The notes below the pieces were generated by a model, which saw only the letters and a program-made list of their open reading frames with translations, was not told the DNA's origin and searched no databases. Made by a program: the position numbers and the translations under genes. From Bacteroidota bacterium (GTDB lineage: Bacteria; Bacteroidota; Bacteroidia; UKL13-3): a DNA stretch of 64,000 nucleotides. Positions 53,944-61,627 of the stretch are shown here, piece by piece; position 1 is the stretch's first letter; each line of letters begins with the position of its first letter. Where the stretch lies: positions 100,997 to 164,996 of the forward strand of contig CANJUD010000004.1 of NCBI GenBank assembly GCA_947477885.1, given 5' to 3'.

Positions 53944-54081
53944 AACCCTTTGGTGCTCCCCTCCCATCAGCAGATACGTGCGAGTGTTCTCGAATCTTTC
54001 CAATATATTTGTAATTCTAAATTCAGTTATCTGAAATATTACTTCATCATATTATATATTACTTGCTGCTCTTTTAACACC

Positions 54082-54384
54082 ATGGAGCAATCAGCTTTTC
54101 TTTCTTTGTATGAAGATGTGAAGAAAGAGGATTTGAAGTTATTGGAATTAATCAGAGATACAAACTATAGGGCTGCGAATGATTCTTCACAATTATTTCA
54201 ATCGCATTATGCCTTGCTAAATGAGAAGAGAATTATGAAAGGGCATCGAACACCCGAAAAATATCGCAACCTTTTTTGTAATAACTTTTCTATAAAAAAT
54301 GATACCTTATATAGATATGCGATATCGGTTCTACGAACAAGGATTTATTCTCGTTGGGCCGTCCCTACAATCAACTTAATATGA
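54082..54384 (+). CDS. unknown small protein, first gene of a coupled operon
   Basis: A 100-residue soluble, helical, charged protein (MEQSAFLSLYEDVKKEDLKLL). It has no recognised domain. It overlaps the next gene by the four bases ATGA at 54381-54384, a sign of translational coupling. A further open frame upstream is unlikely to be coding. An alternative frame over the last 60 bases (YRFYEQGFILVG) looks sensible too, so a frameshift joining it to the next gene cannot be excluded. I cannot assign a function. Confidence 0.5.
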   Translation: MEQSAFLSLYEDVKKEDLKLLELIRDTNYRAANDSSQLFQSHYALLNEKRIMKGHRTPEKYRNLFCNNFSIKNDTLYRYAISVLRTRIYSRWAVPTINLI

Positions 54385-54827
54385 GTTTGTTTAAAGTTCG
54401 AATTTCAGACAGAAGCTACTTATTATATAATATGTTGATGGGTTATAATGGTTACGAAACTATTAGATGTTCGATGTTTGATATCTATACTCATAAAATC
54501 ACAGATATGATAGATGCACTTGTGCTTTTCGGGTGTGGATACAAAATTGGAATGAAAAGCCAGTTTTGTTTTAACTGCAATGATTATCAAATCGTATCAA
54601 GTAATTTTTCCTGCATTAAGGATGGCAATGCCACGAGTAATCTCTTTGATTCATCATACAATCCTATATATAACGTGTATTATTACAGCAAATGTTCTAA
54701 AAATTCTGGTAATCATTTTATTGGTAATGAACTCAAACAATACACAAAAAAAATTCTAGATAATAAAGATAAAGAATATTATTTTGAACTCCCACCCTAC
54801 GACGAACTTTTCAAAAATAAAAAATGA
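54381..54827 (+). CDS. unknown cysteine-containing protein, second gene of the operon
   Basis: A 148-residue protein beginning MSLFKVRISDRSYLLYN, with cysteines in GCGYKIG, FCFNC and FSCIK that could bind a metal or form disulfides. No signal peptide or membrane helix is seen. It overlaps both neighbours by ATGA. Because the third gene is a metal transporter, a role in metal handling is conceivable but unproven. Confidence 0.5.
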   Translation: MSLFKVRISDRSYLLYNMLMGYNGYETIRCSMFDIYTHKITDMIDALVLFGCGYKIGMKSQFCFNCNDYQIVSSNFSCIKDGNATSNLFDSSYNPIYNVYYYSKCSKNSGNHFIGNELKQYTKKILDNKDKEYYFELPPYDELFKNKK

Positions 54828-57904: not shown

Positions 57905-58102
57905 AGTTGGGGGTAATGGAATTGGTATCCAAAAGAATATGTTCACCGAATATTTCAAATGTTCTTTAGGGCCAACGAATTAAGCCAAGGCACTTTATTG
58001 ATTCGCGAAATCATTAATAAAATGAACGGTCAAATAAATGTAGATTCAACCTATGGAGAAGTTACTACGTTCGAACTCATACTGCAGAATAATATTGCTT
58101 GA
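57905..58102 (+). pseudogene. histidine-kinase ATPase-domain remnant
   Basis: The C-terminal part of a HATPase_c domain is readable: IKVGGNGIGI (G1 box), then, one base short, PKEYVHRIFQMFFRANE (F box), REIINKMNGQINVDSTYGE and TTFELILQN, ending with TGA at 58100. Restoring one base at about 57929 joins the frames. The second glycine box (GxGLGL) is shortened (SQGTLLI), and the N-terminal sensor and HisKA parts are absent. It does not code for a working kinase. Confidence 0.65.
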
Positions 58103-58106
58103 TAAA

Positions 58107-59432
58107 CTAGAAGTTCAGAAGAACTAATTTCCCAGTTAGGGTTTTCCCATTATCCATATTCACCTTTACCAAATAAAGGCCATTGGCAATATAAGATAGG
58201 TTCATTTCCGTTGATGCCAATGACATCATTCCCGATGAGCATAGCACCTGTCCGTTTATAGCTAAGATATCAATACTATAATTTATGTTGTCGGGTTTTT
58301 CAACTACAAACTTAAATTCTCCTCTGGTAGGATTGGGATATATTACCAATCCTTGGCTAAATACTTTAGTGCTTGGAGTATTGACTTCTGAAACACGAAT
58401 CATTTTTTTATAGACTCTTTGTCCGCTACAGCCTGTTTCATCGTCATACATGTTCAAGGTAACGCTGTATTCGCCGTGCTGTGTGAATGTATGCGAAGTA
58501 TTAGGCAACACCGAAGTATTTAATGATTGTGATTTCGCATCTCCAAAATCCCAACTTACATTTTGGAAATTTGCTATATGATTGGCAGAAAAATTAACCG
58601 TAAGCGGGGCTGTTCCTTCAACTACATCTGATAAAAAATCGGGGTTGATTTCTTTTACTATAATTGTAACTTTATCGGCTGCAACACATTGATTTTCGTG
58701 CGTAGTATATATTAATTCGTGTGTGCCATTGCCTGCTTTTTCAGGATCGAATGTATTGCCATCAACGCCATTGCCTGTCCAGATACCACCTGCTGGTATA
58801 CCTGTTAATAATTGCTGGCCATTGTACATGCAAATGGTTTTATCATTCCCAGCTTCTGCCGAGGCTGTGTTCTTAATAACTACTTTACTATTAAAGTAAG
58901 AATACTCACAAGCACCATCTGCCAAATATTTTAGTGAATAATTATAGGTGCCTGGTCCCGGATAAATATGTGTGGGCTCCCATTCATTTGTATTTAACAA
59001 TCCATCATCGCCTGTCCACTCATAAAATTTAGGTAGATGGGTTTGATCGGAAACTATAAAATGAAACTTAGCTTCCGTACAATTTTGAAGGGCGTAAGCA
59101 GCCATAACTGAAACAGGTTCGTAATCTATATAAACAGAGTCTATGAATTTATAATCGCTGCAATCGTTCGATATATGAACAGTGAAGCGGATATAACGCT
59201 TACCAGAAAAATTGAGGGAAAAATCATTCCTAGTTTCGAACTTGAGGTTGTCAATAATCCAATCAAAATGGATTACCCCATTACCCTTTTCAATAATATA
59301 TTTGAATTGAATTTCACCACAAGTTTTAACCTGAACATCTTTTACGGCGAGTATTTTTTCACACTGCCCAAAAGAAGACTTGGCCAAAAACAGGCCGAAC
59401 ACCAGTAGAATGAAGTTAAAACACTTTTTCAT
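58107..59432 (-). CDS. T9SS-exported protein with PKD domain
   Basis: A 441-residue exported protein. The signal peptide is MKKCFNFILLVFGLFLAKSSFGQ. A PKD domain lies at about 270-350 (GTAPLTVNFSANHI, VSWDFGDAKS, HTFTQHGEYSVTLNMY). A type A sorting domain ends the protein (LVIYPNPTRGEFKFVVE, ILAINGQVLCSSG, ANGLYLVKVNMDNG). The first 200 residues are unrecognised. It is divergent from the ECF sigma factor and may be among its targets, but that is speculative. Confidence 0.86.
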   Translation of the reverse strand: MKKCFNFILLVFGLFLAKSSFGQCEKILAVKDVQVKTCGEIQFKYIIEKGNGVIHFDWIIDNLKFETRNDFSLNFSGKRYIRFTVHISNDCSDYKFIDSVYIDYEPVSVMAAYALQNCTEAKFHFIVSDQTHLPKFYEWTGDDGLLNTNEWEPTHIYPGPGTYNYSLKYLADGACEYSYFNSKVVIKNTASAEAGNDKTICMYNGQQLLTGIPAGGIWTGNGVDGNTFDPEKAGNGTHELIYTTHENQCVAADKVTIIVKEINPDFLSDVVEGTAPLTVNFSANHIANFQNVSWDFGDAKSQSLNTSVLPNTSHTFTQHGEYSVTLNMYDDETGCSGQRVYKKMIRVSEVNTPSTKVFSQGLVIYPNPTRGEFKFVVEKPDNINYSIDILAINGQVLCSSGMMSLASTEMNLSYIANGLYLVKVNMDNGKTLTGKLVLLNF

Positions 59433-59448
59433 GGCTATTTTATGTGTT

Positions 59449-59456
59449 CAAATGTA
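59449..59456 (-). promoter_or_regulatory. -7 element of the T9SS gene
   Basis: TACATTTG on the minus strand, 17 bases before the ATG at 59432. The nearest TTTG is only 14 bases away, so the -33 is uncertain. Confidence 0.45.
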
Positions 59457-59550
59457 CAAAGAAGTTTGAACAAAAAAAAAAATTTTTTATGCAGGCAACT
59501 TTTCGTTCCTTTGTTAGGTCATGTTTTATGTAGCCCCTAATAATTTGGAT

Positions 59551-60096
59551 ATGGACGACAAAGAACTTGTGGAAGGATGTCTTTTAGAAAATGTGATTTT
59601 TCAGGAGAAACTTTACCGCAAGTATTGTGGAAAAATGATGGGACTAAGTTTGCGTTACGTTAAAAGCAGAGAAGAAGCCGAAGACGTGGTACAAGAAGGG
59701 TTTATAAAAGTATTTAATCATTTAAAAAACTTCAGATTCGATTGTGCTTTGGAGGGATGGATAGCAAGAATAATGGTAAACACGGCCATTACTTTTTATA
59801 ATAGAAACAGAAAAACTGCATTTGAAGAAGACATAAACAATATAAATGAAGATATAAACCACAACTGCGAAAGTGTTGGGCAAAATCTTCAAGCACAAGA
59901 CCTACTTAAATTGATTAATATGTTACCCGACGGATATAAACTGGTTTTTAATATGTTTGCCATTGAAGGATACAGCCACAAGGAAATATCATTAATGCTT
60001 GGCGTAACTGAGAATACAAGTAAAACACAATATTTTAAAGCCCGTAACTATTTAAAGAAATTATTAGAACAGCAACACTTAGCAGAATATGAGTAA
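59551..60096 (+). CDS. ECF-family RNA polymerase sigma factor
   Basis: A 181-residue sigma-70 family factor of the ECF class. Region 2 is visible at 20-85: LYRKYCGKMMGLSLRYVKSREEAEDVVQEGFIKVF with the -10 binding residues, then region 4 at 115-170: LINMLPDGYKLVFNMFAIEGYSHKEISLML and GVTENTSKTQYFKARNYLKKLL. The ATG at 59551 is preferred over 59521 because the latter adds 10 residues without family character. It overlaps the next gene by 8 bases, so the pair is an operon. It directs transcription of its own regulon when the partner releases it. Confidence 0.92.
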   Translation: MDDKELVEGCLLENVIFQEKLYRKYCGKMMGLSLRYVKSREEAEDVVQEGFIKVFNHLKNFRFDCALEGWIARIMVNTAITFYNRNRKTAFEEDINNINEDINHNCESVGQNLQAQDLLKLINMLPDGYKLVFNMFAIEGYSHKEISLMLGVTENTSKTQYFKARNYLKKLLEQQHLAEYE

Positions 60097-61627
60097 AAAT
60101 ATTGAAGATTTATTCAAGGATGGTTTCGAAGGCTTTGAGCAGCAGCCTAAGAATGATATGTGGGATAAGATTGTGCAACAAAGGCAAATCAACAATCTCA
60201 CTAGCAACGCCAACCATGAAGTAACTCCTGAACATACATATAGCAAAGAATTTAAAAATTTTGAAGCTCAACCTGGCGAAAGAGTGTGGCGTAATGTATT
60301 GACACATATTAATAGCAGACGCCAACAAAAGAAATATACCACTTGGTCCATACTCCTATTGTTTCTTATAGGTAGTTGCAGTTCGTTAGTTTGGTTATAT
60401 GATAATAATGGTGATGGGAATTTGATTACGGAAGAATCTACAAAGCAAAAAGGAGCAACACATATCAAGCAAAAATCAAATAATAACTCTACTAGCCCCG
60501 CTCAAAGCGCCAATGACAATAGAGTTAAGGATCAAGAAAATACGTTTAGTGAAAGAACTATAGGTAGTAGTGCTGTTAAATATAATAAATCTTATCACCG
60601 CTTTGCAAGAAATGCTTTTGCATTAACAAATGATGAGGGAGTTTTAGGCAATAGTGAAACTCCTATCCATGTTTCAAATGATAAAATAGTTGATGAAAAT
60701 ATCAAAGCAAAAAACATTGAAATTATTACTATTATTAACGACCATAATAAACTGAAAGAAATTGCTGAGACATTTACTAACGAAGGGCTTGCAAGCAATG
60801 GTTCTTTAATAAAACCAGATTCAGCAGCAACTGCTTTTGCCAGTAATAAGAAAAAAGATGAAAAGAAAACACTTGATACAAAAGCCGACAAAAAATGGTG
60901 GCATGGTCCTAGCTACTTTAAATATACTAGCGAAACCGATATGAATAATGAAGAATCAAATTGGAAATTAGGTGCTTCTGTGGGCTATGAATGGCCAACA
61001 GCGAAATTTACTGGCAATGCAAATTCTTTATATACCCAATTTAGAAAAGATGATGAATCGAGAGCCCAGTCATATAATGCCCAAGCTTTTCTGGTTCGCC
61101 AAATAGGAAGACCATATTTGGTGCAATTTGGTGTTGGATTTATTTCATATGGTTTTAAAGGTGATTACCAACATAGCATTTACACTGTGCGTGACTCAAC
61201 AACGCCGCAGGGAAATATTATACACGACACTACCTACTCCTATAAAATAAATGCCCAAAGCCATTTTAGAATTAATTTTATTGAACTGCCAATAATTTTC
61301 GGCTACCGTTTTGGAGATAATAGGACTAACTTCGATTTTAAAGCTGGATATATCATGCAATTATTGCATGCACAAAATGGTTACGTTTTATCCCCCACTT
61401 CTCATCAGCTTGAACCTATAGGTGCTGCTAACGAATTGTCTGCAAACAGATTTGGTTCTTCAGCATTACTCAGTGCCAGAGGAAATTGGCAAATTATGCA
61501 TGAGCTAAGTGTATTTCTGGAAGGAAACATCAGATATAACCTCAAGCCATTAATGGGCGACGCAACTCAGCAACAGTATATTAGTTCAGTTGGAATTAAT
61601 GGTGGGATTAAATTCCATATAGATTAA
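60089..61627 (+). CDS. anti-sigma protein spanning both membranes (Dma-like)
   Basis: A 512-residue protein with an unusual layout. Residues 1-82 are cytoplasmic and contain two copies of a motif F-x-x-F-E-x-Q-P-x4-W-x2-[IV] (at 13-28 and 55-70). Residues 84-104 are one membrane helix (TTWSILLLFLIGSCSSLVWLY). Residues 105-270 are a low-complexity, Asn/Ser/Lys-rich linker long enough to cross the periplasm. Residues 285-512 have alternating strands that end YISSVGINGGIKFHID, an outer-membrane beta-barrel pattern. It overlaps the sigma gene by 8 bases. The plan fits the dual-membrane anti-sigma proteins reported in Bacteroides; the barrel is predicted, not proven. Confidence 0.78.
   Translation: MSKNIEDLFKDGFEGFEQQPKNDMWDKIVQQRQINNLTSNANHEVTPEHTYSKEFKNFEAQPGERVWRNVLTHINSRRQQKKYTTWSILLLFLIGSCSSLVWLYDNNGDGNLITEESTKQKGATHIKQKSNNNSTSPAQSANDNRVKDQENTFSERTIGSSAVKYNKSYHRFARNAFALTNDEGVLGNSETPIHVSNDKIVDENIKAKNIEIITIINDHNKLKEIAETFTNEGLASNGSLIKPDSAATAFASNKKKDEKKTLDTKADKKWWHGPSYFKYTSETDMNNEESNWKLGASVGYEWPTAKFTGNANSLYTQFRKDDESRAQSYNAQAFLVRQIGRPYLVQFGVGFISYGFKGDYQHSIYTVRDSTTPQGNIIHDTTYSYKINAQSHFRINFIELPIIFGYRFGDNRTNFDFKAGYIMQLLHAQNGYVLSPTSHQLEPIGAANELSANRFGSSALLSARGNWQIMHELSVFLEGNIRYNLKPLMGDATQQQYISSVGINGGIKFHID

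Follow-up and report, generated by a model that had tools for sequence, protein, structure and literature searches.

Background

In the FecR/FecI system, which comprises three proteins, an outer-membrane event is relayed to an ECF sigma factor via an inner-membrane anti-sigma factor. A related arrangement is formed by the Dma1/Das1 and Dma2/Das2 pairs of Bacteroides thetaiotaomicron, which were reportedly first described by Pardue et al. in 2024. That paper is cited in PMC12045153. Deletion of Dma1 or Dma2 raises vesicle release in a sigma-dependent manner, i.e., the proteins behave as anti-sigma factors (PMC13088901). In Porphyromonas gingivalis, the type IX secretion system (T9SS) is controlled by PorXY-SigP, with SigP under the response regulator PorX (PMC4800418, PMC7712824). 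The matching of cargo and cargo-specific barrel production to export in Bacteroidota is known mainly from this pathway of one oral pathogen.

Here, we analyzed a 64-kb stretch of a Bacteroidota genome (hereafter, the window) in which an ECF sigma factor gene precedes a gene for a putative dual-membrane partner. We propose, with a probability of roughly 0.7, that the pair is a Dma-type cell-envelope signalling module controlling part of type IX secretion, in which the sigma factor is held until release. The dual-membrane Dma layout is already published, and is not in itself new. The pair resembles Dma1/Das1 and Dma2/Das2 in having an ECF sigma factor beside an N-terminal anti-sigma region, one transmembrane helix, a long disordered tether, and a C-terminal barrel, a likeness drawn from the published descriptions of domain order. 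It differs by its duplicated motif and by a predicted regulon of T9SS cargo and PorP/SprF, whereas the published studies of Dma deal with vesicles and polysaccharide utilisation loci. With SigP, compared by description, the pair would share an autoregulated ECF sigma factor acting on T9SS genes, including a porP-type gene, and we also liken to it the input that the SigP pathway takes from the CTD-bearing surface protein PorA. However, SigP is controlled by PorX, the gene downstream of SigP is not among the listed putative anti-sigma factors, and the proposed SigP promoter motif differs from the one found here, AGGCAACTTTT-N14-GTCAT. FecR/FecI similarly carries an outer-membrane signal to an ECF sigma factor via an inner-membrane anti-sigma factor, but with three proteins, whereas here one chain holds the inner-membrane and barrel parts, and the pair has no match to the FecR domain at E<=1 in Pfam.

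If the proposal is true, the pair is a second, self-contained candidate circuit, with a sigma factor, a dual-membrane inhibitor, a conserved exported partner, a predicted promoter, and named targets. The Dma class, linked to vesicle control in gut Bacteroides, would then also include control of secretion, with motif copy number as an added variable that the papers we consulted do not describe.

Gene layout and protein architecture

The sequence-only reading of this DNA had described two open reading frames with an 8-base overlap. Both were recovered on the same strand, overlapping at 60089-60096 (Table 1). The sigma factor matches sigma-70 region 2 (E 4e-14) and region 4 (E 9e-14) in Pfam, and no specific family above the cut-off among the NCBIfam profiles. 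An ATG at 59521 offers an alternative start, 10 residues upstream. As the conserved -10 element (59518-59522) overlaps this ATG, 59551 is the better start and the longer reading frame is unlikely.

Table 1. Features of the gene pair and its divergent neighbor (positions in the window; residues refer to the 512-aa protein)
Feature	Position	Strand	Basis
Divergent gene, PKD domains and T9SS type A sorting domain	58107-59432	-	Pfam PKD_4, Por_Secre_tail
TACATTTG element 5' of the divergent gene, putative vegetative-type -7 element	59449-59456	-	consensus alone; TAnATTTG in 5/5 loci
Predicted ECF promoter of the sigma gene, AGGCAACTTTT-N14-GTCAT	59493-59522	+	conserved in 5/5 orthologous loci
ECF sigma factor gene, 181 aa	59551-60096	+	Sigma70_r2 and r4_2 matches
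Putative Dma-type dual-membrane anti-sigma factor gene, 512 aa	60089-61627	+	ORF, architecture, AlphaFold2 model
Anti-sigma motif copy 1, residues 5-32	60101-60184	+	motif HMM, 28.2 bits
Anti-sigma motif copy 2, residues 48-70	60230-60298	+	motif HMM, 12 bits at residues 53-68
Predicted inner-membrane helix, residues 85-103	60341-60397	+	hydropathy 1.85; helix in AlphaFold2 model
Predicted disordered periplasmic tether, residues about 105-285	60401-60943	+	pLDDT mostly <50 over 109-285
Predicted C-terminal 8-stranded outer-membrane beta-barrel, residues about 290-512	60956-61624	+	AlphaFold2 model, PDB fold matches

The 512-aa protein has a single hydrophobic segment with RRQQKK just before it, which predicts a cytoplasmic N-terminus. 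Its AlphaFold2 model, computed from an alignment with relatives (62 rows, almost all of sigma-linked proteins, and four of free-standing barrels), has helices at residues 5-12, 22-35, 48-54, and 64-104, followed by a disordered stretch of about 180 residues. The 8-stranded barrel that had been expected for residues 285-512 was obtained, with pLDDT mostly >90 and strands at 292-309, 328-339, 343-371, 377-409, 413-434, 455-468, 473-484, and 494-511. This domain matches OprF, OmpW, OmpA, and NspA among PDB structures (Foldseek and VIA-align, Z 16.8-17.7). The Pfam family OMP_b-brl_2 matches it weakly, and matches one orthologue (L005) with E=1e-10. From fold and homology we infer that the barrel sits in the outer membrane, a location supported by the occurrence of homologous barrels as free-standing proteins with signal peptides. 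The proposed dual-membrane anti-sigma architecture, with a single helix and a long tether, is thus supported by the hydropathy profile, the RRQQKK stretch, and the modelled disorder and barrel.

Residues 1-84 lack cysteine, and hence the H-x3-C-x2-C motif of zinc-binding anti-sigma factors (ZAS) is absent. The comparison of the N-terminus with solved structures returned a chance match alone. Within the membrane helix, the stretch LIGSC (residues 93-97, 60365-60379) is lipobox-like in the genus of the window and is not kept in more distant orthologues.

Duplicated N-terminal motif

The N-terminus was described as holding two copies of F-x-x-F-E-x-Q-P-x4-W, and both fit this pattern exactly (FEGFEQQPKNDMW and FKNFEAQPGERVW). 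An HMM of the motif, trained independently on other sigma-linked proteins with the window's orthologues left out, detected each of them (Table 1) and gave 0 matches of at least 8 bits in 20 shuffled sets. The internal repeat of the N-terminus, measured by its off-diagonal score, was equalled by 1 of 1000 shuffles. Both copies are kept, with the linked pair, in four relatives, and the duplication is thus present in five species.

The motif occurs in 105 of 114 sigma-linked proteins. Among the 114 sigma-partner pairs, the HMM gave one match in 87, two in 17, and three in one; L067 and L071, both among the 17, were rejected as double motifs because each consists of two overlapping alignments of one copy. 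Three-copy N-termini are found in L056, L188, and L219, and further weak copies in L137 and L143. Judged from these sequences, the copy number ranges from one to at least three across Bacteroidota, and tandem copies recur in several lineages. Hence, the search for duplicated motifs in other sigma-linked proteins did reveal them, and since they recur in many of these proteins, the duplication alone is less exceptional than the sequence-only reading had presented it.

Two copies might bind two sigma molecules and form a 1:2 membrane store, as opposed to binding one sigma factor at two faces. Such a store would fit the likeness of each copy to the entire single motif found in other members, and also the variation in copy number, with some copies very similar to each other in L219. 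However, copy 2 scores 12 bits against 28 in the window's group, and in the AlphaFold2 model the helix 64-104 joins its Trp region to the membrane helix. For these two reasons copy 2 may be divergent or structural, and we consider a store of two sigma molecules doubtful.

In another locus of the same genome (L178:2864-4121, G000:C11), the two motif copies are distributed over two genes, an arrangement also found in L230 and L231 (three species). The first copy lies in a separate, soluble 64-aa protein encoded between the sigma factor and the barrel protein, in a gene overlapping that of the barrel-bearing partner, which has the other copy. This first copy scores 1.3 bits and was assigned mainly by the spacing of Phe, Pro, and Trp. 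We rejected the possibility that L178 is one frameshifted double-motif gene, since the split and the overlap are kept in two sister genomes.

Partners of ECF sigma factors in Bacteroidota

The genome of the window (G000) has 16 genes with a sigma-70 region 2, and in 8 of the 16 cases the gene is followed by one for a partner with a motif-like N-terminus, a transmembrane helix, and a linker. In the Bacteroidota loci that we collected, the partners were 59 barrel proteins, about 35 short proteins without an outer-membrane domain, and 8 proteins with CHU_C-like endings of T9SS type B cargo (8 by regular expression, more by eye, Pfam-confirmed in four). The orthologues, and about 59 barrel proteins linked to sigma factors, have the same layout with overlapping genes.

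The CHU_C-ended proteins resemble ECF anti-sigma factors, with a motif, a transmembrane helix, and a linker, and have no barrel. Four are Pfam-confirmed with E 1e-12 to 1e-15 (L181:2662-3885, i.e., G000:C6, L219, L225, and L226), and the sequences of L040, L046, L072, L079, L121, and L123 have similar ends. These proteins could dock on PorP-type barrels. We found no published account of them in a literature search of limited coverage. In L041 and L044, the two-membrane form is split: a sigma factor and a short transmembrane anti-sigma factor are accompanied by a homologue of the window barrel in a gene of its own.

There are also natural fusions of an ECF sigma factor with a partial motif (lacking the Trp), a transmembrane helix, and a linker (L224:2452-3585, L223:848-1915, and L228:3578-4690). 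In L224 and L228, the fusion is followed by another gene, whose product has a signal peptide and a barrel-like C-terminus; the sequence of L223 ends earlier. In a structure model of one fusion, the sigma part was confident and the motif helix middling, with no contact information. Because the motif is permanently attached to its own sigma factor in these proteins, one might think that the membrane partner is a co-activator or a pro-sigma partner instead of an inhibitor, in which case its loss would lower sigma activity. We find this very unlikely, given that the published Dma1 and Dma2 act as anti-sigma factors (PMC13088901) and that a sigma factor gene followed by a membrane partner is the typical order of anti-sigma operons.

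Orthologues and the divergent PKD gene

Across the relatives in which the sigma factor and its double-motif partner were found together, the sigma orthologues have 92-93% or 54-55% identity to the window copy. A search of viral contigs revealed no relative. In two sister species the entire neighborhood around the pair is conserved. In G013 and G005, which belong to other genera of the family, the shared genes are the sigma factor, the barrel protein, and the divergent PKD/T9SS type A gene, and no others. The conservation of these three genes where all other synteny is lost points to a functional unit. The PKD/T9SS gene is divergent from the pair in 5/5 orthologous loci, and its products can be aligned over their full length, with 31-68% identity to the PKD protein of the window.

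The divergent gene had been put forward as a candidate target of the sigma factor. As a direct target it is not supported, as the predicted ECF promoter faces the sigma gene only and the strand of the PKD gene carries the vegetative-looking TAnATTTG and no matching promoter. The gene is better seen, from these sequence comparisons, as a conserved partner of the pair. Being conserved, exported, and outside the control of the sigma promoter, the PKD protein is a candidate ligand.

Promoter and predicted regulon

The element AGGCAACTTTT-N14-GTCAT is directed to the sigma gene in all five loci, with close variants in G013 and G005, and the copy at 59493-59522 is the sole strong match in the window. 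We searched whole genomes with AGGCAACTNTT-N14-GTCNT, allowing up to one mismatch and using the reversed pattern as a control. The pattern was defined from the self-sites of the five genomes with an orthologue, which represent three lineages. These genomes have 5, 11, 5, 9, and 5 sites (reversed controls: 2, 3, 2, 0, and 0). The 35 relatives without an orthologue have 0-2 sites each, 35 in total against 56 for the control. Site counts thus separate genomes with and without the orthologue completely, even when self-sites are excluded, but the five genomes amount to three lineages and were themselves the source of the motif.

Self-sites aside, G005 and G013 have 12 sites, all of which lie between genes, 7-70 nt upstream of an ORF start. 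The genes behind them match CHU_C (2), Por_Secre_tail (4), and PorP/SprF (2) in Pfam; the remaining four encode an OMP barrel, another ECF sigma factor, NamZ, and a TPR protein. Hence, 8 of the 12 are T9SS-linked (binomial p about 2e-7 under an assumed background of 7%, in which the type A share was measured and the other shares were estimated). In G000, genes preceded by sites encode a stand-alone CHU_C protein of 117 aa, a secreted protein of 194 aa, and a protein of 285 aa whose type A tail is borderline. Others lie before large CHU_C proteins in C1 (first ORF start 160 nt downstream) and C4 (spacing 13), and a CHU_C site in C8 has two mismatches and lies within a longer reading frame. The predicted regulon is thus one of T9SS export, and T9SS genes as targets in a wider sense gain support from genes elsewhere in the genome, while the divergent gene itself drops out of the list. 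The conservation of the PKD/T9SS gene in 5/5 loci and the predicted sigma promoter with its T9SS-linked sites go beyond the sequence-only reading.

The pair could instead control the general state of the outer membrane or of vesicles, with T9SS genes among the targets through abundance alone. The domain order is that of Dma1 and Dma2, whose deletion raises vesicle release (PMC13088901), at least 150 genes of the genome encode a Por_Secre_tail, and the predicted targets include envelope genes outside the T9SS (NamZ, the OMP barrel, the TPR protein). Yet, the T9SS-linked share of 8 in 12 stands against a background of about 7%, and two PorP/SprF genes as well as a stand-alone CHU_C protein have sites in separate genera. 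We regard such general control, with T9SS genes listed through abundance alone, as unlikely.

The other ECF paralogues of G000 have a GCAAC-type -35 element in common, and not the full promoter. As GCAAC is shared, some listed targets may belong to paralogues and regulons may overlap. Tiny secreted proteins consisting almost entirely of a signal peptide and a CHU_C domain are encoded behind predicted promoters of the sigma factor in L277:610-960 (G000:C15) and L315:7782-8168 (G005). The other ECF sigma gene is that of L324:6968-7558 (G013:C12), which suggests a sigma cascade in G013.

Proposed mechanism

In the Dma-type secretion module that we favor, the membrane protein, made together with the sigma factor, probably holds it at the inner membrane by the cytoplasmic motif or motifs. 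The barrel would lie in the outer membrane, at the far end of the periplasmic tether. Release of the sigma factor, whether by proteolysis, tension, or a ligand, would follow when the barrel changes or when something that it contacts does, possibly the PKD protein or T9SS traffic. Once free, the sigma factor would transcribe its own operon from AGGCAACTTTT-N14-GTCAT (autoregulation), together with a small regulon that comprises T9SS cargo of types A and B, barrels of the PorP/SprF type, and a few envelope genes of other kinds. Co-expression of type B cargo and PorP/SprF would make sense because PorP/SprF proteins anchor type B cargo (PMC9143113).

A more specific version is that one protein monitors type IX secretion and its state at the outer membrane, through contact of the barrel with T9SS cargo or the PKD protein, and signals directly to RNA polymerase, with the tandem motifs setting the number of sigma molecules stored and released. 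As a whole, this version seems rather unlikely to us.

Gene remnants in the window

Between rluD and the PKD gene, both sister species have an intact gene of 627-629 aa with a PAS-like-looking N-terminus. In the window, a remnant at 57932-58093 corresponds to its last 58 residues, and the remainder is gone. Elsewhere in the window, at 53950-54827, a frameshift near 54315-54324 splits a gene that is a single 253-aa ORF in G001.
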